Source of the DNA: a virus
Length of the DNA stretch: 64,000 nt
Reading direction: 5' to 3' (one strand)
IMG/VR virus record: IMGVR_UViG_3300046648_000213
Coordinates: 1 to 64,000 of that record
A program made the translations under genes and the position numbers. Each line of letters begins with the position of its first letter. Position 1 is the first letter of the stretch. Below, piece after piece: positions 90-47,766 of this stretch. A model generated the notes under the pieces. That model was given only the letters and a program-made list of their open reading frames with translations, did not search any database and was not told the DNA's origin.

Positions 90-160
90 ACTGAACCACT
101 ATCATCTCAACCCGGTTGTTATCAACCGAACTGAACTGAAGCGAAGTTAAATAAAATCAA
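70..160 (+). promoter_or_regulatory. Leader of the DNA ligase with repeated GAACTGAA units
   Basis: Short non-coding leader containing TTGAACTGAAC, CTCAGTTGA and CCGAACTGAACTGAA. The same vocabulary (CTCAACCC, GAACTGAAC) recurs just upstream of the ParA gene at 1669-1700, and CTCAGTTGA is the complement of part of the TCAACTGAGTTGA palindrome at 1564. This suggests that ligase and partition genes share a DNA-binding regulator. No convincing -10/-35 pair was seen here. Confidence 0.4.
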
Positions 161-1438: not shown

Positions 1439-1563
1439 CGATCAACGGACGACGGCGAGCGGTGCGCGCGGCACCGGCCCGGACGAGCACGCCTAACCGG
1501 TTTGGGCATAGCAGCAGTCTGGAAAAGGGCCGAGGGTGAAAATCCCCACGTTGTCCACCCAAT

Positions 1564-1646
1564 TCAACTGAGTTGAGTCGATATGGACTGTGTTCGATGG
1601 AACACGGTCCATTTCGTTTGCGTCGATTGAAATAATTTGAATCGAT
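1564..1646. promoter_or_regulatory. Inverted-repeat cluster upstream of parA (candidate centromere/operator)
   Basis: The ligase-parA gap (1439-1705) contains three symmetric elements in 85 bp. They are TCAACTGAGTTGA at 1564-1576; arms ATGGACTGTGTTC and GAACACGGTCCAT around a 4-base centre (about 1582-1611); and arms TCGATTGAAA and TTTGAATCGA around 1624-1646. In type Ib partition systems the centromere (parS) and the autoregulatory operator lie exactly here, upstream of parA. The 13-bp TCAACTGAGTTGA recurs at 44915 and 45000. Assignment as parS is inference. Bases 1439-1560 hold nothing else I recognise. Confidence 0.5.
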
Positions 1647-1664: not shown

Positions 1665-1705
1665 TACTCAACCCGTTTGAACTGAACTCATCTGGAGTCA
1701 ATTGA

Positions 1706-2359
1706 ATGACGACAATCGCATTCGTATCAGGGAAGGGCGGCGTCGGCAAAACGACGTGGGCGTTTGACAACGCCGTGCAGCGCGCGCTCGCCGGCCGCGA
1801 CGTACTCGTCATCGACGCCGATCCCGAGCGCATCATGGCGATCGCGAACGCGCGTCGCGACAAGATCGAGGGCGTGCCGCACCTCACCTGCGTTTGCCTG
1901 TACGGCGACGAGATCACGACCGAAGTCCCGAAGCTAGTGAGGAAATACGACGACATCATCATCGACACGCCGGGGCACGACGCGCCCGAGTCGCGTAGCG
2001 CGATGGTCGTCGCGAAGAAGGTCATCACGCCCGCACAGACGAGCCAGTTCGATCTCGACGCCTACGCGAAGATCGACAAACTGGTGAAGCTGGCGCGCGG
2101 CTTCAATCCGAAGCTGGAAGCACTCGCACTGGTGAACCGCGCGTCGACGAACGTGCGCAAGGCCGACGCCGACGAGGCGCTGACCCTCATGAAGACGCTC
2201 CAGCAGTACCGTCCGATGGAATCGATCATGCGCGAGCGCGACGTGTTCAAGCGGATCGCTAAGGAGAACCTTGCCGTGTGTGAGTTGAAGCTGCGCAGCG
2301 ACAGCGACAAGTCGGGGCTCGCCGAGTCGAAGGCACTTTACGAGGAGATTTGGGCATGA
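1706..2359 (+). CDS. parA: ParA-family partition ATPase (type Ib-like)
   Basis: Walker-type cytoskeletal ATPase expected to drive segregation of a low-copy replicon by binding the nucleoid in its ATP form. The deviant Walker A box G-K-G-G-V-G-K-T-T spans residues 9-17, including the signature lysine K10. A switch-like VLVIDADP follows at 33-40 and Walker B IIIDTPG at 84-90. At 217 residues it lacks the N-terminal HTH of type Ia ParA proteins and matches type Ib. The ATG overlaps nothing upstream; its last bases overlap the start of the RHH gene, so the two are translationally coupled. It could instead be a MinD/ParA-like protein of another role, but the partner gene argues for partition. Confidence 0.9.
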   Translation: MTTIAFVSGKGGVGKTTWAFDNAVQRALAGRDVLVIDADPERIMAIANARRDKIEGVPHLTCVCLYGDEITTEVPKLVRKYDDIIIDTPGHDAPESRSAMVVAKKVITPAQTSQFDLDAYAKIDKLVKLARGFNPKLEALALVNRASTNVRKADADEALTLMKTLQQYRPMESIMRERDVFKRIAKENLAVCELKLRSDSDKSGLAESKALYEEIWA

Positions 2360-2679
2360 ATGCCGCTAAGAAAGGATTCGCGACCGACGCGTCGTCGTTC
2401 ATCGCTGACGCCGGCCGCCGGCCGAACGTGGAAGAGCCGGTGAAGCCCGCGCGCACGGCGCGCAAGACCGCGCCGGCGCCGGCCGCCGACGAGCCCTATC
2501 CGTGGATCGCCGCGAACGAGCGCGTGCCGAAGCACTTCGGCCTGCGCATGCCGGAGCCCGAGCACGAGAAGCTGAAGTGGATCGGGGAGCGCATCCCCGG
2601 CTCCATGCACGACTTCGCGCTGAAGGCCGTCACCGAGGCGATCGCCGCGAAGCTAAAGGAGCTCGGCATCGAGGGCTAG
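2356..2679 (+). CDS. Ribbon-helix-helix partner of ParA (ParB-like centromere-binding protein)
   Basis: A 107-residue protein starting at ATG 2356 in an ATGA overlap with the parA stop. The N-terminal half is flexible and rich in Pro, Ala and Arg. The C-terminal half (about residues 60-107) reads as a short beta strand F-G-L-R-M followed by two helices, the pattern of MetJ/Arc-type RHH dimers. In type Ib partition cassettes a small RHH protein with a disordered basic N-terminus follows ParA, stimulates its ATPase and binds repeats upstream of parA. All three points fit. The fold is inferred by eye. Its stop codon overlaps that of the convergent gene on the other strand. Confidence 0.65.
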   Translation: MNAAKKGFATDASSFIADAGRRPNVEEPVKPARTARKTAPAPAADEPYPWIAANERVPKHFGLRMPEPEHEKLKWIGERIPGSMHDFALKAVTEAIAAKLKELGIEG

Positions 2680-41365: not shown

Positions 41366-41709
41366 TGCCGTCCGCTCCCATCGCACACGCGGCAGGCGCT
41401 GTTTGCGTAAAGCGGAAGGCCGTCGACGAGGGCTTGGCGCTCGAAACGTGTGCCGCCGCACGCAGCGCAGGCCACAAATGGCTTGCCAGCTTCGTCTGCT
41501 GCTTGATCGATGACATGTTTGGCGCTGATTGCGGCCAATACACCTTTCAGAGAGCGCTCAGCGGCATGGCGAGAGACTCTTTTGGCGTGAATTTGGTGCG
41601 GAGAAGCCTGGACACTGCCAATGTCGCCCACGATTGGGGCAACACTGTCCATTGAAGGGTCGAAGTCAGGCTCGAGGAGCGCCTCGTGACCGTGGAAGTT
41701 GTCTTCCAT
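41359..41709 (-). CDS. Zinc-knuckle protein at the head of the late operon
   Basis: A 116-residue protein whose C-terminal third has C-A-A-C-G-G-T then C-R-V-C-D-G-S-G-R. This is two C-x-x-C-x-G pairs like the zinc fingers of DnaJ and of phage Q-type antiterminators. The N-terminal part includes an H-A-A-E-R-S-L-K-G-V-L-A-A-I helix. It overlaps the HTH gene upstream by 44 bp and the next gene by 7 bp. A role in late transcription or antitermination would explain terminators inside the late region, but this is inference. Confidence 0.5.
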   Translation of the reverse strand: MEDNFHGHEALLEPDFDPSMDSVAPIVGDIGSVQASPHQIHAKRVSRHAAERSLKGVLAAISAKHVIDQAADEAGKPFVACAACGGTRFERQALVDGLPLYANSACRVCDGSGRQC

Positions 41710-42085
41710 CTTGTTCTTGTCCCAATGTCTTGACCATCCGATAGACCTGTCGAGTGGAAACCTCCAACTCTTCGGCAGCTTTCTCTATGGTCATGGTGCC
41801 TTTCAGCACTCTAATTATTGTTTGGCGCTGAACTTGACGCTTTTGGGCGACCCTCTCTCGGTCTAGGACCTTCTGAGATGGAGCTCTCGTCAAATTTCTA
41901 GCCTTCATCAACCTGCTCAAATGCCGCTCAGTGACACCAAGCATTCTAGCCGCTTCTGTGCGGCTTATCTGCTTGGTCGAATAGGCTTCCAGTACCGAGT
42001 CCCGTTGTTTTTCTTCTTCTGCCGAGAGTGCCCCGATTGCTGAGCCTTGCGGCTTTTTAGTCATGGCCCGGATTGTGGACGACAT
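41666..42085 (-). CDS. Tandem helix-turn-helix regulator, first gene of the leftward operon
   Basis: A 139-residue basic protein from ATG 42085. Two HTH units are visible: S-R-T-E-A-A-R-M-L-G-V-T-E-R-H-L-S-R-L around residues 42-60, and T-I-E-K-A-A-E-E-L-E-V-S-T-R-Q-V-Y-R-M further on. It is the first leftward gene beside the operator-rich divergent region, the usual place for a master regulator. It is a candidate to bind TGTCCA-N2-TGGACA. The start is uncertain: the frame is open upstream to 42262 but without a ribosome-binding site. Confidence 0.65.
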   Translation of the reverse strand: MSSTIRAMTKKPQGSAIGALSAEEEKQRDSVLEAYSTKQISRTEAARMLGVTERHLSRLMKARNLTRAPSQKVLDRERVAQKRQVQRQTIIRVLKGTMTIEKAAEELEVSTRQVYRMVKTLGQEQDGRQLPRSRGAPRA

Positions 42086-42766
42086 GGCAGGAATGGGCAA
42101 GTCCCTTTTTTCCGAGAATGTCAAAAAGTTCTGGAAAATGTCGGAAATTTCGTAGGGGAGAGGGACCCGGCGCGTCGGCGCAATGGACAGGGAAAGCCAC
42201 CCCGTCAAAGCCCCTAAACGGTCTTTGGCGCGCGCCGTGCGATGGAAAGCGTCATTGTCCATTGTCCCAATGATTCTAACGACTCAGACGGCGCACACGG
42301 CGCACACAATGGACACTGACAGCACATAGGACAGTGGATAGGACATAGGCACTGGCAGTGTCCATTGTCTAGGCACTGGCACTGGCACTGGCACTGGCAC
42401 TGGCAGCTGTCACTGCAATGGACACTGGCACTGGCACCGATCGTTAGCACTGGCATAGGCACTGGCACTGTCCATTGTCATTAAGGGTGAAAGTTGCGAT
42501 GTCCGGGAAAAATTCAGGTGAAACGGGGTAGTGTCTTTATAAAATAATTTGAATATACCTATTGCTAATGGGATTATCAGTCTTTAAAATAGAGCCTGTA
42601 GTTGGTAGTTAGCTGTAGGCGGGATTAGGCAAAGCGCCTAGTCCATGCGGGCGAAAGCGCCGCGCGCCGTGTTCTCTAACAATTTAGCCGATTTACTTAC
42701 CTTGCATTAGGCATGCCCTAATGTAAAGGGCATGCCATAACTCAACTTTTATAGGAAGTTTCAGAT
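42086..42766. promoter_or_regulatory. Divergent control region with five TGTCCATTG half-operators
   Basis: 680 bp without a clear gene, between the leftward and rightward operons. TGTCCATTG or its complement CAATGGACA occurs at 42256, 42307, 42359, 42416 and 42469, in alternating orientation at 43-57 bp spacing. On the minus strand a TTGACA box lies near 42118. On the plus side an AT-rich stretch (TTTATAAAATAATTTG, about 42536) and two GGCATGCC palindromes (42710 and 42729), one within CATTAGG/CCTAATG, precede the next gene. This probably holds the main divergent promoters. Confidence 0.6.
42372..42405. repeat. GGCACT hexamer tandem repeat
   Basis: Five or more head-to-tail copies of GGCACT, with further scattered copies to 42470. 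They are embedded between TGTCCATTG half-sites in the divergent control region. Period 6 is not coding here in a credible frame; it may act as a spacer or binding array. Confidence 0.75.
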
Positions 42767-43621
42767 ATGGCACGCAAAGCTCAAAACGCAGCAGCAGCAG
42801 CAGAAACGAACGCAGCAGCAGCGGATAACGCGGCAGCAGCAGAAACGAACGCAGCAGCAGCAGCAGCAGCAGCAGCGACGGATTATGACAGCGCACAGTA
42901 TGTCAGTGCTACTGTCATTGATATGCTTGTGGCAGTGTCCGAAAATAAGGTAGCAATGGATGCTAACGAAAAGACCCTTAAAGGGTTGATTCCGAAGATT
43001 CCGAAATTGTCTACTGCCCTTTCTCTTATCAATAGCGCAATTGACCGCGCATATGGTTTGCAGGAAGAAACGGCATACTTGGACGAAAAGGGTAATACCT
43101 GCTACAAAACGCGGCACGTTAAATTCTGCACTTTGCGCGCGTGCACGATGCTTGTGCAGTGGCATAAGGAAGTGGAGAAAAAGGACGTTAAGGTAAAGGC
43201 CAAGTTTGTAGGCAACAAGGCTTACAAGTTTGAAATTACCGAAAAGGAAAAGGAAGAAACGCAAAGCGCACCGTCCGAAGTGTCAGAGGAAGAAAAGGCA
43301 CGACGCGCGGAATTTGCAGCAGCAGAAACGCAAAGCGCAAAAATCCTTGCTCTGTTCAATGTGGCGCGTTCTATCGGTATCCCTGCTGATATGGTGGATA
43401 CGTGGGCAGCAGACATTGACCAATGGCAAGCGGTAGAAAACCAGCGCAAGGCAGCAGAAGCGCAAGCGGCAGCAGTGGCAGCAGCAGCAGAAGCAGCGCG
43501 CGCAGCAGAGAACGCGGCAGCAGAAGCAAAGCTTGCAGCAGAAAAGGCAGCAGCTACGCGTAACCGCAAAACGCGCGACGCGGCAGCAGCAGCAGATAAG
43601 CAAGGTGAGTTGATCGGCTAA
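42767..43621 (+). CDS. Alanine-rich, (GCA)n-encoded protein of unknown function
   Basis: A 284-residue protein from ATG 42767 behind AGGAAG. The N-terminus (residues 6-38) and C-terminus (220-275) are built of Ala runs encoded almost only by GCA. The middle (40-190) is a folded-looking domain with A-T-V-I-D-M-L-V-A-V, D-E-K-G-N-T-C-Y-K and Lys-rich strands. Codon use is unlike the neighbours (AAA, GCA, GAA rather than GC3), suggesting a different origin or a need for high early expression. It is first on the rightward side and followed at once by a strong terminator, so it is probably an abundant single-gene early transcript. Confidence 0.7.
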   Translation: MARKAQNAAAAAETNAAAADNAAAAETNAAAAAAAAATDYDSAQYVSATVIDMLVAVSENKVAMDANEKTLKGLIPKIPKLSTALSLINSAIDRAYGLQEETAYLDEKGNTCYKTRHVKFCTLRACTMLVQWHKEVEKKDVKVKAKFVGNKAYKFEITEKEKEETQSAPSEVSEEEKARRAEFAAAETQSAKILALFNVARSIGIPADMVDTWAADIDQWQAVENQRKAAEAQAAAVAAAAEAARAAENAAAEAKLAAEKAAATRNRKTRDAAAAADKQGELIG

Positions 43622-43629
43622 ACCCTAAA

Positions 43630-43660
43630 CCCCTAAACCCTTAAACGGTTTAGGGGTTTT
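43630..43660 (+). terminator. Strong intrinsic terminator after the Ala-rich gene
   Basis: CCCCTAAACC (43630-43639) pairs with GGTTTAGGGG (43647-43656) and is followed by TTTT. A second T-run (TTTTT) follows after GCC. It isolates the Ala-rich gene from the downstream operons. Confidence 0.9.
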
Positions 43661-43671
43661 GCCTTTTTCAT

Positions 43672-43999
43672 TGTCCAATTTATCGATTGGACAGCGAAAA
43701 ACGCATAACCTGATTTTTCAGTGTCTTTTACACTGGCTTAGAGCCCCGCGCGGGGCTGTCCAATTGGACAGCCTATAGCGCGGGGCTCTATCGTTTTGTG
43801 TTTCGTTTTTTGCTGGCTGTCCAATTGGACAGCCGCGCGCGCTGCTGTCTTTTGCTGGCTGTCCAATTGGACAGCCGCACGGCGCGCGCTGCTGATGCGC
43901 TGATGCGCTGCTGATGCGCTGATGCGCTGCTGATGCGTTGATGCGCGGCACTGTCCAATTGGACAGCCGCGCCTTTTAACTTTGATAGGGAGTTTTGCT
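43672..43999 (+). promoter_or_regulatory. Operator cluster with four TGTCCAATTGGACA palindromes
   Basis: A 330-bp gap with a split site (TGTCCAAT, six bases, ATTGGACA; 43672-43692). Four perfect 14-bp palindromes follow at 43757-43770, 43818-43831, 43860-43873 and 43952-43965, each extended by GC and GC flanks. The first is itself enclosed by TAGAGCCCCGCG and CGCGGGGCTCTA (43739-43790). The next gene starts 34 bp after the last palindrome. No gene is supported in this gap. Confidence 0.7.
43888..43944. repeat. Three 19-bp tandem repeats
   Basis: GCTGCTGATGCGCTGATGC at 43888-43906 and 43907-43925, with a third copy differing by one base at 43926-43944. They lie head to tail between two TGTCCAATTGGACA palindromes. 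Confidence 0.85.
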
Positions 44000-44212
44000 A
44001 TGCGCCGTTTCTTTAGCTGGCTGGAATTTTGGGTTTTTGTTCTGGCGTCCGCCGGTGCCTTTTGGGTGTTCCTTTTCGCCACGTTGGTATTTCCAGACGT
44101 GCTGACCCGTTATCAGGTCTGCTGCACTTTGGCACTGGTCCCGACCTGTGCATGTGCCGCTTTCATCCAATTTCTGATTATCAAGGATGAGGAGCGCCGC
44201 TATGGTTGGTAA
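44000..44212 (+). CDS. Small two-span membrane protein
   Basis: A 70-residue protein from ATG 44000 behind AGGGAG. Residues about 9-29 and 36-57 are hydrophobic (F-W-V-F-V-L-A-S-A-G-A-F-W-V-F and A-L-V-P-T-C-A-C-A-A-F), followed by a short charged tail. Early membrane proteins of this size may act in superinfection exclusion; this is only a possibility. It overlaps the next gene by 11 bp. Confidence 0.65.
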   Translation: MRRFFSWLEFWVFVLASAGAFWVFLFATLVFPDVLTRYQVCCTLALVPTCACAAFIQFLIIKDEERRYGW

Positions 44213-44468
44213 GAATCCGGCGCTTCTCGAATTGGACATTCAGACACTGAATGTTGAGGCTATTCATTTGCGCGCTGACTTTGAGGCTCTGCGTGCCAAA
44301 ACGATGAATGAGCTATCCAGCGTTATGCCGACGCTGCGAGATGTGACGCGCGCGCTCGAACGCCCGACGCTCACTGACGAGAAACGCCTGATGTTGGCTG
44401 AAGTGCTGGCGCAACGTCTGGACGTTGTTCAGGACGTGATCGACAAGTTGGCAGCAGCGAAGAGATGA
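44202..44468 (+). CDS. Small helical protein, unknown
   Basis: An 88-residue protein from ATG 44202, chosen for the GAGGAGC upstream inside the previous gene. It is mainly helical (A-I-H-L-R-A-D-F-E-A-L-R, then M-L-A-E-V-L-A-Q-R-L-D-V-V-Q-D-V-I). No DNA-binding or enzymatic motif is evident. Coupled to the membrane protein. Confidence 0.6.
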   Translation: MVGKNPALLELDIQTLNVEAIHLRADFEALRAKTMNELSSVMPTLRDVTRALERPTLTDEKRLMLAEVLAQRLDVVQDVIDKLAAAKR

Positions 44469-44547
44469 GAGCGAAACGCGCTTCGGCGCGTCTGCATGTG
44501 AGGCATGCACTGACGAGCTCAGACAACTTTGATTGGGGAGTGTCCAA

Positions 44548-44898
44548 ATGGACATTGGAAACGCACAGCGCCGCGCGCTCGGTATCACGGGCGATTCTAT
44601 GTGGATGCAGCTTGGCATGACCGAAGCGCAGTTCCTTACCGCGCAGAAGCAGCACGCGCGAGATCGTGCGGATCGCTCGGCAGGCGAGCGGGCCTACAAG
44701 CTGGATCGTTACGAGGTGTCCGCGCCGATCGGCCGCATGCGCACGATGCTGCCTATCCTCAGCACGAGCGACAAAGCGACGGCGGTCGAGTTCTACGAGT
44801 CCGGCAAGCACCTGGGCTACGAGAAGAACTGGCCGGACGATCCGAAGCCACGGCAGCTGTCGAAAGGGCAGCTGCGCAAGCTGCGTAAGCGCCACTGA
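44548..44898 (+). CDS. Basic unknown protein whose start lies inside an operator
   Basis: A 116-residue protein with a basic Arg/Lys C-terminus (L-S-K-G-Q-L-R-K-L-R-K-R-H). ATG 44548 lies within TGTCCAAATGGACA (44541-44554), so a bound repressor would cover the start codon. GGGGAG lies 7 bases upstream. The basic tail suggests nucleic acid binding. No known family recognised. Confidence 0.6.
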   Translation: MDIGNAQRRALGITGDSMWMQLGMTEAQFLTAQKQHARDRADRSAGERAYKLDRYEVSAPIGRMRTMLPILSTSDKATAVEFYESGKHLGYEKNWPDDPKPRQLSKGQLRKLRKRH

Positions 44899-44908
44899 CT
44901 GAGTTCGC

Positions 44909-45012
44909 ATCAACTCAACTGAGTTGATTCGATCTCACCTCATATGTATTGGGCTCGACCCGATTCATATGACGTGAGATCATCTCGCGCCTGCTCAACT
45001 CAACTGAGTTGA
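44909..45012. repeat. Nested symmetric element with two TCAACTCA-AC-TGAGTTGA palindromes
   Basis: Two copies of a long palindrome (44909-44928 and 44995-45012; arms TCAACTCA and TGAGTTGA, AC centre) flank an inner inverted repeat. The inner repeat has GATCTCAC (44931) paired with GTGAGATC (44974-44981) and CATATG (44941) paired with CATATG (44966). The whole about 100-bp block is roughly mirror-symmetric about 44955 and ends 33 bp before the next start codon. The core TCAACTGAGTTGA also occurs upstream of parA at 1564. Confidence 0.85.
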
Positions 45013-45044
45013 TACCAACTTAACTGAAACCGAATGGAGTTTGT

Positions 45045-45260
45045 ATGAACACGAAAAATCTGAACGGCCTGACCGACGTCCGCCACATCTTGACCGACGC
45101 TCGCGGGAAGTTGGAAGAGGCGCGCGCACGGCGCCGCCACGCTGTCGCATACACGATCGTGTGCCTGGGCATCGTCGGCGCGCTGTGCGCCACCATGTTC
45201 ACGCCGCAGAATGCGCACGCCGCGCGCTCGCATCATTCGAGCGTGCGGTCGCATCACTGA
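45045..45260 (+). CDS. Small single-span membrane or secreted protein
   Basis: A 71-residue protein from ATG 45045 (GGAG upstream). A charged helix (residues 9-31) is followed by one hydrophobic segment (Y-T-I-V-C-L-G-I-V-G-A-L-C-A-T-M-F), then a short His/Ser-rich end (A-R-S-H-H-S-S-V-R-S-H-H). Likely membrane-anchored; function unknown. Confidence 0.55.
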   Translation: MNTKNLNGLTDVRHILTDARGKLEEARARRRHAVAYTIVCLGIVGALCATMFTPQNAHAARSHHSSVRSHH

Positions 45261-45261
45261 C

Positions 45262-45275
45262 TGTCCAATTGGACA
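45262..45275. promoter_or_regulatory. TGTCCAATTGGACA palindrome
   Basis: Perfect 14-bp palindrome two bases after the stop codon of the preceding gene and just before a terminator. Here it is not directly ahead of a gene, which shows that the element is not simply part of the ribosome-binding leader. Confidence 0.75.
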
Positions 45276-45281
45276 CTGACA

Positions 45282-45306
45282 AAGCCGGCGCAATGCCGGC
45301 TTTTTT
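45282..45306 (+). terminator. Intrinsic terminator
   Basis: AAGCCGGC, five-base loop, GCCGGCTT and then four more T form a classic terminator closing the small operon before the iteron region. Confidence 0.9.
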
Positions 45307-45879
45307 GCTTTTCTGCTCTCTGTCAATACCCTGAAAAATATTTTTCCGGGTCTTTTTGACACACCCCTCTGACTGACATTTCTTGCCGTTCGGGACCGAA
45401 ACCGAATCGAGTCCGCAAAATTTGACAAAATCCTCCGCATGTGCATCAACCCCGAAAAACACAAGCCCTTGTGTTTGTAACTGTATGCCGACCTTAATTA
45501 CTCTTTTCGAGTTTGGCAGCCGCTCTCCCTTACCAGACAAGAGTTTGAACCCTTCTATATTCAAATTATTAGTTAAAAAAGTAGGGTATGAGGGGGGTAA
45601 GCTCAAGTGCCTTAAAGACCGAGGACTTTCTCGTATGTGCTTGATCTAACAGGGAAAAATATTTTTCCTCACTCAGATTTTTGCTCTCTCGACCTTGGCG
45701 AACCCCCAAGGGGGTACTTTTCGGCAAGTCATTAAACAGTTGCTGTAAGTCCTTGATTTACAATGGACATTTCAACCGTGTGGCGTAACTCACACAGTCA
45801 AGTCGAAAACCATTGACTTTTGAAAACCACCTCAAAATCGTCGCTTTCCTCAATACAATCAACCACTTACGTCGAAAAA
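45307..45879. other. AT-rich non-coding stretch next to the iterons
   Basis: About 570 bp, visibly more AT-rich than the rest, with two copies of the perfect palindrome GAAAAATATTTTTC (45333-45346 and 45653-45666). Plus-strand and minus-strand open frames exist but neither has a convincing start or composition. With the adjacent direct repeats it resembles the AT-rich melting zone of a replication origin. That role is inference. Confidence 0.5.
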
Positions 45880-46068
45880 TCGATGCATGGGTGTTGTAAA
45901 TCGATGCATGGGTGTTGTAGCTCGATGCATGGGTGTTGTGGGGTCGATGCATGGGTGTTGTGACCTCGATGCATGGGTGTTGTGGGTCGATGCATGGGTG
46001 TTAGGCCCCTCGATGCATGGGTGTTTGCCTATTTTTTGTGCAAAAACGGCTCGATGCGTGGGTGTTGC
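45880..46068. repeat. Array of eight 18-bp iterons (candidate replication origin)
   Basis: TCGATGCATGGGTGTTGT begins at 45880, 45901, 45922, 45944, 45966, 45987 and 46010 (21-23 bp period), with a diverged eighth copy at 46051. The first five are identical across all 18 bp; later copies vary at the 3 prime end. A spacing of two helical turns in direct orientation is typical of initiator-bound iterons in theta-replicating plasmids and of lambda O sites. AT-rich DNA flanks the array on the left and a regulator gene lies to the right. Confidence 0.9.
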
Positions 46069-46132
46069 GCGTGTTCTTTTGCACACGACGTTTTCTGTCT
46101 GAAATAGACGTCCCTTTTGGCGGAAAATGTCG

Positions 46133-46138
46133 TACAAT
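46133..46138 (+). promoter_or_regulatory. Candidate -10 element of the Cro-like gene
   Basis: TACAAT about 65 bp upstream of the start codon. No good -35 box is at the right distance, so it may need an activator or be regulated through the adjacent iterons. The context GAAAATGTC-N-TA-N-AATC is shared with 55190-55207. Confidence 0.3.
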
Positions 46139-46203
46139 CTCAGCCTGAATCGCAAAACGTCTTCAACTAGAATTGAAACCGAAAGGTGTATGGAGAAATT
46201 TCA

Positions 46204-46449
46204 ATGACTGACAATGCTTCGATGAGCCCGATCGAGCGCGCCGTGAACATCATCGGCGGCCCGAGCGAAACGGCACGCAAGATGACCCTCGCCACCGGCA
46301 AGCTGTTCTCGCCGAGCGTGGTTTGGCATTGGGTAGCGAAAGATCACGTGCGCGTGGAATTCCTGACGGCGCTGTCCAGGCTGAGCGGCATTCCGGTGCT
46401 CGAGTTCGTTGACCACCTCGCCTACACGAGCGAGAAGGCGACCGTATGA
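46204..46449 (+). CDS. Cro/YdaS-like DNA-binding regulator
   Basis: An 81-residue protein. Residues 12-65 follow the YdaS/Cro-type HTH pattern: A-V-N-I-I-G-G-P-S-E-T-A-R-K-M, a turn, S-P-S-V-V-W-H-W-V, then a helix F-L-T-A-L-S-R-L-S-G-I. Proteins of this class repress phage early promoters or act as antitoxin-like Cro proteins. It is the first gene after the iterons and overlaps the antirepressor-like gene by 4 bp. It could bind the iterons, the TGTCCA palindromes or its own promoter. Confidence 0.7.
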   Translation: MTDNASMSPIERAVNIIGGPSETARKMTLATGKLFSPSVVWHWVAKDHVRVEFLTALSRLSGIPVLEFVDHLAYTSEKATV

Positions 46450-47315
46450 TCGTTGCGCCAATCGAGAAGGTGATCCCGTTCCGGTACGCGCCGGACACAA
46501 TGGACGGCCTCTTCGAATGTCTCACTGTCCAATTGGACAACGAGATCATCGTCCCGGCGCGTGCGCTGTTCGAGGTGCTCGGCACGGACTGGCCGACCTC
46601 GCGCAAGATGCTGCTCGGGCGTGGCGTTGAATTCCGCAAGCATCCGGTGAAGGCGGGCAGGCGCGTGGGCCTGGTCGATTGCATGACGCTGCCCGACGTG
46701 ACAGCCGCGCTCGACAAGATGAACCCGAACAAGGCACCGTCCGACGAGCTCAAGATGCGCCGGCATCTGTTCAAGGTCGGTCTGGTGCGCGAGATCGAGA
46801 ACGGTTGGGGATTGAATATCGCTGCAAAATCCGCGGACCCGGACACGATCATAGTGACGGACACGTTGGACGGCGCGGACCTGTTCCGGCGCGACGCATC
46901 GCGGCTCGGCATGCATCCGAACCACATCGGCGCCGTGGTGCGCACGGGCGGCTTTATCGAAGTCGTGAAGCCGCAGGTGGCGACGCGCGTGAAGCGCCTG
47001 ATGCAGCCGAAGGGCGCACCGGACTCGTTCGTCGAGATCATCGAGCAGCGCGCGTCGCGCGAGACGATCCAGCTTCCGCTGGACGCTTACGCACCGGGCG
47101 AGCTCGAGCGGCGCATGCGGGACGCCAAACCCATCGTGCCGGCGGACATATTCGAGCGTAAGGCGTCGGACGACCCACTTGCCCAACGCCGTGTGTTGCC
47201 GCGCCGGCCGGACGTGATCGACCTGAACCCGACGCTGGACGATATGAATCCGGACCGGTGGAAGTTCGTGATGCTGCCGGAAACCGTTGAGAAGAAGGTG
47301 TGGGACTGTGAGTGA
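46446..47315 (+). CDS. Antirepressor-like protein, or replication initiator candidate
   Basis: A 289-residue protein. Its N-terminal about 90 residues (V-Q-L-D-N-E-I-I-V-P-A-R-A-L-F-E-V-L-G-T-D-W) resemble the N-terminal domain of P22-type antirepressors. The C-terminal two thirds is basic and mixed alpha/beta without a recognised motif. Coupled (ATGA) to the Cro-like gene, it fits a repressor/antirepressor pair. But the gene lies 380 bp from the iterons, and no other Rep candidate is nearby, so an initiator role cannot be excluded. A TGTCCAATTGGACA palindrome lies in the coding sequence at 46526. Confidence 0.45.
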   Translation: MIVAPIEKVIPFRYAPDTMDGLFECLTVQLDNEIIVPARALFEVLGTDWPTSRKMLLGRGVEFRKHPVKAGRRVGLVDCMTLPDVTAALDKMNPNKAPSDELKMRRHLFKVGLVREIENGWGLNIAAKSADPDTIIVTDTLDGADLFRRDASRLGMHPNHIGAVVRTGGFIEVVKPQVATRVKRLMQPKGAPDSFVEIIEQRASRETIQLPLDAYAPGELERRMRDAKPIVPADIFERKASDDPLAQRRVLPRRPDVIDLNPTLDDMNPDRWKFVMLPETVEKKVWDCE

Positions 47316-47317
47316 AC

Positions 47318-47357
47318 ACTGACCAGCTTGCGAGGCTGGTCAGTGTCCATTTGGACA
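47318..47357 (+). promoter_or_regulatory. Hairpin plus TGTCCATTTGGACA module
   Basis: ACACTGACCAGC pairs with GCTGGTCAGTGT right after the stop codon. The downstream arm continues into the palindrome AGTGTCCATTTGGACACT (47342-47359). A leader CAACCTACG-TGGAAG follows. Nearly the same module (hairpin, AGTGTCCATTTGGACACTGCA, CAACCTACGGAGGAAG) recurs at 52170-52235. Confidence 0.6.
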
Positions 47358-47394
47358 CTGCAACCTACGTTGGAAGTCACATATGGAGGTAACT

Positions 47395-47766
47395 ATGCTC
47401 GAAGCGCTGCGCACTGTGCGCCGCCTCACGGACGAAGGGATGAAGCGCGAGATCGCTGAAGCGCTCGTCGAAGAGATCAATGCGGGGATGAAAGACAACC
47501 TCGTAACGAAGTCGGACCTGAAGACTGAACTTGCCCTGCTGCGTGCCGATATTAAGGCGGACCTCTCGGAGCTCAAGTCGGAACTCGTCGGCACGCGCTC
47601 CGACCTGCGTGCTGAGATCAGGGAAGGGAAGAGCGATTCGCGCTCGTACATCGACGGCGTGCTGTCTGACTTCAAGACGGCGATCACGGTGCGCGTCGCG
47701 TTCCTGATGGTCGCGCAGCTTTTCGCGATGGCCGGGATCGGCATGTATCTGAAGCACGGCGGCTGA
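47395..47766 (+). CDS. Coiled-coil protein with a C-terminal membrane anchor
   Basis: A 123-residue protein from ATG 47395 behind a perfect GGAGGT. Residues about 10-85 are a continuous coiled coil (L-K-T-E-L-A-L-L-R-A-D-I-K-A-D-L). The last 20 residues form one membrane span (V-A-F-L-M-V-A-Q-L-F-A-M-A-G-I-G). This matches DUF1640/CCDC90-like proteins common in phage and bacterial genomes, of unknown role. Confidence 0.65.
   Translation: MLEALRTVRRLTDEGMKREIAEALVEEINAGMKDNLVTKSDLKTELALLRADIKADLSELKSELVGTRSDLRAEIREGKSDSRSYIDGVLSDFKTAITVRVAFLMVAQLFAMAGIGMYLKHGG

Follow-up and report, generated by a model that had tools for sequence, protein, structure and literature searches.

What is a nested block of inverted repeats, positioned between two genes of a viral record, likely to do when its palindromic word is also found ahead of parA? 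The block occupies positions 44909 to 45012 of record IMGVR_UViG_3300046648_000213, which is 83,209 bases long. The window analyzed here is the stretch of DNA comprising positions 1 to 64,000 of that record, and some searches were extended to the remainder. A reading made from the sequence alone had described the block as mirror symmetric and suggested that it could be a second centromere, a regulatory hub or a looping element.

The record probably represents a phage-plasmid

Virion genes combined with plasmid replication and partition genes characterize phage-plasmids, and the record was found to encode a terminase, a major head protein, a ParA protein and a TrfA-type replication protein (TrfA, E value of 1.9e-23) facing about seven iterons. 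A reading frame stays open across the joined record ends (83209/1), which suggests a circular molecule. Because of these genes, the partner protein encoded with ParA and the apparent circularity, the record was treated as a phage-plasmid, a bacterial virus that probably also lives as a plasmid. A distant named relative is Xylophilus phage Lumi, which is of similar length (ligase, 34%; terminase, 27%) and whose polymerase genes were the site of partial matches to the 1102-aa polymerase-like gene called in the record. The terminase search returned one true relative, a 48.6-kb record (G013, the same as L018) that is closer (terminase, 49%; polymerase, 40%) and in which the ParA, partner and TrfA proteins of this phage were all without a match. 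The DNA polymerase search of viral contigs found no relative. Beside the TrfA gene, an 82-aa protein is encoded at record positions 81676-81924 (-); it shares 72% identity over 72 residues with a protein near ParA in another relative, G001 (L006:8269-8484), against only 43% between the two ParA proteins.

Architecture of the block

The features of the block and of the genes on either side are as follows.

44548..44898, + strand: 116-aa protein with no assigned function, upstream of the block
44910..44927, no strand: left 18-bp near-palindrome TCAACTCAACTGAGTTGA, with the predicted 13-mer operator at 44915-44927
44931..44981, no strand: inner inverted repeat GATCTCAC...GTGAGATC, with a CATATG pair
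44955..44983, + strand: weak promoter-like pair TCGACC-17-GATCAT, 8/12, under the promoter-scan threshold
44995..45012, no strand: right 18-bp near-palindrome TCAACTCAACTGAGTTGA, with the predicted 13-mer operator at 45000-45012, 32 bases ahead of gene 45045
45045..45260, + strand: 71-aa small protein with a probable membrane segment, downstream of the block

The two near-palindromes are identical and 85 bp apart, and the arrangement of two palindromes around an inner inverted repeat had been placed correctly in the sequence-only reading. The mirror symmetry claimed for the block survived in part. The inner repeat is independent of the flanks and significant, folding by itself (44929-44994) at -29.7 kcal/mol (z, -5.1), but the outer inverted repeat follows automatically from the palindromic nature of each flank. 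The inner repeat is also off-centre, with a gap of 3 nt to the left palindrome and of 13 nt to the right one. The block was correctly said to lie outside genes, as none covers it in our own gene map; mechanical minus-strand open reading frames touch both palindromes. No terminator-like site was found within it, in agreement with the same reading, and a terminator was predicted at 45281.

The whole block (44899-45022) was predicted to fold at -55.8 kcal/mol (z, -8.9; 0 of 200 shuffles), and the parA leader folds well too (z, -6.7). Together with the location of the block between two same-strand genes and ahead of the terminator at 45281, this would fit an RNA element, in which the block, once transcribed, would fold into a single long hairpin with a role in regulation or processing of the 44548-45260 mRNA. 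However, the arms are themselves palindromic, and their word occurs alone at 1564 and in part at 107 and 1668, as a DNA site would. Rfam gave 0 matches in the window, and relatives of the block from which covariation could be judged were not found. We consider the RNA element quite unlikely.

The block belongs to a small set of shared sites

The core 13-mer TCAACTGAGTTGA was found exactly at 1564, ahead of parA as had been reported, and at 44915 and 45000, these three being its only exact occurrences in the 83,209-base record. At up to 2 mismatches it had 10 matches in the window, compared with 0.94 expected from shuffles (maximum, 5). The 18-mer TCAACTCAACTGAGTTGA was exact at 44910 and 44995 and had 2 mismatches at 1559, a level at which none was seen in 60 shuffles of noncoding DNA. 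The half-word TCAACTGA, which had been noted ahead of the ligase gene and was confirmed there at 82(-), occurs five times in the record, also at 1564, 44915, 45000 and 79795. All five are in noncoding DNA, where shuffles gave an average of 0.31 and a maximum of 4 in 300; noncoding DNA comprised 11.4% of the record by our own gene calls and is approximate, since the gene map came from a simple caller of our own, supplemented manually with six frames for 41377-44468.

The motif was refined to TCAAC-N3-GTTGA (TCAACNNNGTTGA), which at up to 1 mismatch gave seven sites in the record. Two are inside genes (24445 and 77724), and the five in noncoding DNA are confined to the ligase leader (107), the parA leader (1564 and 1668) and the block (44915 and 45000). 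When spacers of 0 to 8 were scanned, a comparable noncoding grouping was seen only at spacer 3, the grouping at spacer 8 being the same 18-mers read again. By the shuffles of its words and of its fold the block is non-random, and we predict that it is a doubled operator. The leader members of the set are as follows.

107..119, no strand: predicted ligase-leader operator TCAACCCGGTTGT, directly 3' of the predicted -10 TATCAT (ends 105)
1559..1576, no strand: parA-leader copy of the 18-mer, with 2 mismatches and the exact 13-mer at 1564
1668..1680, no strand: predicted second parA-leader operator TCAACCCGTTTGA, directly 3' of the predicted -10 TATACT (ends 1664)

Weaker ligase-leader sites were present at 77 and 122. 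The promoters predicted for the ligase gene (TGGACT-17-TATCAT) and parA (TTGAAT-16-TATACT) stop 1 to 3 nt short of their respective sites (107 and 1668). The distance from the start of the site to the ATG was 54 for ligase, 38 for parA, 45 from the right palindrome to gene 45045 and 29 for gene 79824, so that the right palindrome occupies a position like that of the leader sites of the set. As a lone palindrome, the parA-leader 13-mer is unremarkable; arms of that length were present in 40% of 150-bp windows drawn at random.

The leader of gene 45045 was most similar to those of ligase (score of 28) and of genes 79824 and 46222 (26 each), against a mean of 13.1 and a standard deviation of 3.5, a similarity that stems partly from the operator site itself. 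The leaders of 161 (ligase), 45045 and 79824 grouped together; 1706 (parA) joined ligase and 79824, and 46222 joined 45045. The best match of the parA leader was an unrelated leader, 76148. Exact words that a parA leader has in common with the remainder of its contig were also compared and were uninformative, as random windows did equally well, here and in seven relatives. The spacing is 104 bp between the two sites of the parA leader (9.9 turns at 10.5 bp) and 85 bp between those of the block (8.1 turns), and these near-whole-turn values fit same-face binding or a loop, two cases being too few to weigh; the ligase-leader spacings (30 and 15 bp; 2.9 and 1.4 turns) agree less well with whole turns.

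The suggestion of a shared regulator was upheld to the extent that the word is common to the parA and ligase leaders and that the sites are consistent with a single regulator. We put about an even chance on the block being a doubled member of a TCAAC-N3-GTTGA operator set that is bound by one protein, most likely a ribbon-helix-helix (RHH) protein.

ParA is encoded with a probable RHH partner

Two overlapping genes follow the parA leader.

1706..2359, + strand: ParA, 217 aa, without an N-terminal DNA-binding extension (AAA_31, PHROG 164)
2356..2679, + strand: 107-aa partner, probable RHH centromere-binding protein by alignment and model, overlapping the end of parA

ParA matched AAA_31 over its cut-off (E value of 4.9e-14) and the ParA-like PHROG 164. 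It is a short ParA-type ATPase lacking a DNA-binding extension, as expected of type Ib partition systems. A small protein that has RHH features by alignment and modeling is encoded behind ParA. The 107-aa protein by itself matched nothing in Pfam or PHROGs, and it aligned with the partner proteins of ParA relatives. The ParA searches yielded 12 viral and 47 genome loci, of which 54 of the 59 were examined for the next gene (L007, L016, L017, L085 and L086 were left out). A small open frame followed parA in 52 of these 54, with none for L014 and L071; some of the chosen frames are clearly wrong (e.g., L051, L060 and L070), and L013 and L046 gave odd or truncated ones. Most of the other partners have, by eye, an N-terminal tail and an RHH-like C terminus. 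A profile of the partner family (24 sequences) matched the solved RHH proteins HicB3, CopG and Arc and weakly matched ParG (E value of 0.34). The model of the partner showed two confident C-terminal helices behind an extended stretch (mean pLDDT of 92-95 for residues 61-100) and no assigned strand, as would be expected for the single chain of a two-chain ribbon. A structure search with this model gave weak matches to Reg576 and a SegB-DNA complex, and the Foldseek matches were not significant. The 107-aa protein is probably an RHH centromere-binding protein.

In the mechanism that we propose, this RHH protein would most likely bind all members of an operator set common to the leaders of the plasmid-maintenance genes (ligase, parA-RHH and, in a weaker form, 79824) and to that of 45045. 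Since the sites follow the predicted -10 elements directly, a place typical of repression, it would act as a repressor at the parA and ligase leaders. At the block, whose two strong sites lie 85 bp from each other, a larger nucleoprotein complex would assemble and control gene 45045, and the block may also serve as an auxiliary centromere.

Other candidate DNA-binding proteins are encoded in the window, namely, a helix-turn-helix (HTH) protein at 41666-42163 and a weak YdaS-like protein at 46222. An HTH repressor, such as a Cro/CI-like switch protein, might use the set as its operators to control the plasmid genes and 45045, with partition not involved. TCAAC-N3-GTTGA is plausible as an HTH operator, and the YdaS-like gene has TCAACTAGAATTGA in its own leader, which resembles that of 45045. 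However, it is at the leaders of parA and ligase that the sites cluster, and regulation of its own operon is usual for an RHH partition protein, type Ib partition proteins doubling as repressors (as stated in passages of PMC5016525). We regard the HTH repressor as somewhat unlikely.

Tetramer density and the possibility of a second centromere

The RHH protein ParG of TP228 reportedly binds ACTC boxes, and ACTC/GAGT tetramers were therefore counted. Among 150-bp windows of the record, the parA leader and the block ranked highest, with 6 tetramers each against a mean of 0.79, and they were the only noncoding segments with a clear excess over their own shuffles (z, 4.1 and 3.7, respectively; next best segment, 1.1). 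The parA leader holds the sites at 1564 and 1668 in addition to its 6 tetramers, and 4 tetramers remained in 245 bp when its palindrome was excluded. In the block, 4 of the 6 fall inside the palindromes, and the count there is consequently not independent evidence.

A true second centromere would have the RHH protein load on the block and ParA move the element from there and from the parA leader. The two strongest sites of the record are both in the block, its tetramer density is as high as in the parA leader, an iteron array is located about 0.9 kb away, and several par sites per element are known in pSM19035 and Miko. Nevertheless, full activation of ParA in pSM19035 needs at least four contiguous repeats, according to passages of PMC9499535, and the block consists of two separated palindromes; nor was a clear distant copy seen in the relatives, as detailed below. 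We judge a second centromere unlikely.

The block in relatives

A blastn search with 43500-47500 found no match in 50,697 phage records. The word TCAACTNAGTTGA was found in none of 13 virus records, of which 12 have a ParA relative and 1 has a terminase relative. Since such absence is expected if every system has its own site, the relatives' own palindromes were examined. The parA-leader palindrome of G001 had no other match below 4 mismatches and, at 4 to 5 mismatches, 11 further scattered places versus 3 for the reversed control. In G006 there was one other match, with 5 mismatches, at the very end of parA; the L043 genome had one 2-mismatch match, on another contig; and in the L079 genome a second copy was not found. 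A clear distant copy was thus seen in 0 of the 4 relatives followed, and the conserved placement for which the comparison looked was not borne out. As far as these sequences show, the block is particular to this lineage. The idea that every relative has a palindrome upstream of parA was also discarded, as only 5 of 48 distinct leaders exceeded their own controls.

A spaced-pair pattern was found in nine viral contigs, most of them tandem-repeat runs unrelated to this phage, and tblastn with the proteins of this phage gave no match at any of the nine loci. Two of these, L091 and L095, have a different palindrome, TTAACAACTCAGTTGTTAA. The unrelated viral contigs concerned, G022 (L091) and G026 (L095), carry CAACTNAGTTG at 14 and 16 places, respectively, in a span of about 6 kb, and the CAACTNAGTTG pairs read there are part of TTAACAACTCAGTTGTTAA.

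The nested symmetry and the nearby iteron array might also mark a relic of replication, recombination or a mobile element (a cruciform, a telomere-resolution site or a MITE-like sequence). Against this, a telomere resolvase (PF16684, a Pfam model that may miss distant forms) and a tyrosine integrase were not found in the record, the 18-mer was in 0 of the viral contigs scanned, and the record has a single copy of the block. Such a relic is highly improbable.

A second iteron array lies near the block

The record has two arrays of iterons, whose units differ.

45880..46025, + strand: second iteron array, about seven copies of TCGATGCATGGGTGTTG.. (21-22 bp)
record 82803-82951 (L004:18803-18951): TrfA-side iteron array, about seven iterons

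These are two candidate origins on one phage. The block is positioned about 0.9 kb ahead of the second array, where the rightward early region starts, and the statement that the sites link the two ends of the early region was inexact: the block is near the second iterons, and the other sites surround the TrfA origin. A second, phage-type origin in the 45880-46025 region is plausible because G013 has different iteron-like repeats, without such a block, at the corresponding position, flanked by an Ala-rich gene and the early region.

Several other repeats were observed. A GGCACT array of about 16 copies is present at window positions 42372-42470, and in G013 CTGTCC repeats stand beside the iteron-like repeats. 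Dispersed palindromes of another, larger family, TGTCCAATTGGACA, had 21 matches at up to 2 mismatches versus 0.17 expected, at places including 6188, 18274, 43757, 43818, 43860, 43952, 45262, 46526, 51517, 55881, 57382 and 59153. Many are intergenic, just 5' of ribosome-binding sites, and they may be stoperator-like. Only four viral contigs contained the 16-mer CTGTCCAATTGGACAG, and by the proteins tested none of these is related. AATAATTTGAAT words are common to 42542 (+), 45559 (-) and about 1630, near AT-rich leaders, and are possibly a phage promoter element.

Relation to known partition systems

The closest parallels are found among partition systems with separated sites. In the type Ib omega/parS system of pSM19035, which also uses an RHH protein, separated sites overlap the promoters of partition and copy-number genes and serve both regulation and partition (passages of PMC5016525 and PMC9499535). 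Those sites are runs of 7 to 10 heptads, whereas the candidate sites here are 13- to 18-bp palindromes, single or paired. The plasmid-maintained phages RedRock, Miko and Rachaly have more than one parS locus, one of them beside repA; as passages of PMC7157519 describe them, these are short direct-repeat sets near parABS and repA, unlike the palindromes and the distant block of this record. TP228 has degenerate tetramer boxes (passage of PMC7308502) upstream of the operon (passage of PMC5016525). Like its ParF-ParG-parH system, the one described here combines a small ParA, a probable RHH protein and candidate tetramer boxes. In TP228 the centromere is continuous and operon-upstream, whereas here a second cluster is 43 kb away. 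The phage N15 has a type Ia partition system with centromere sites away from the par operon and is maintained as a linear plasmid with a protelomerase. In contrast, a telomere resolvase was not found in this record. The N15 Sop system has been reported, by a title cited in PMC11652158, to aid late gene expression.

Of the possibilities left, the most interesting is that partition sites are linked to both origins. The RHH protein might bind the block, by the phage-type origin, as well as the parA and ligase leaders, by the TrfA origin, and so couple partition, plasmid replication and the lytic replicon, with the second origin silenced or tethered during plasmid life. We hold this to be decidedly unlikely. 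If one partition protein did govern the plasmid genes and a site at the second origin, it would provide a compact model of how a phage-plasmid chooses between plasmid life and lytic growth, and if the block is simply a doubled operator, it still yields a predicted and easily testable regulon.
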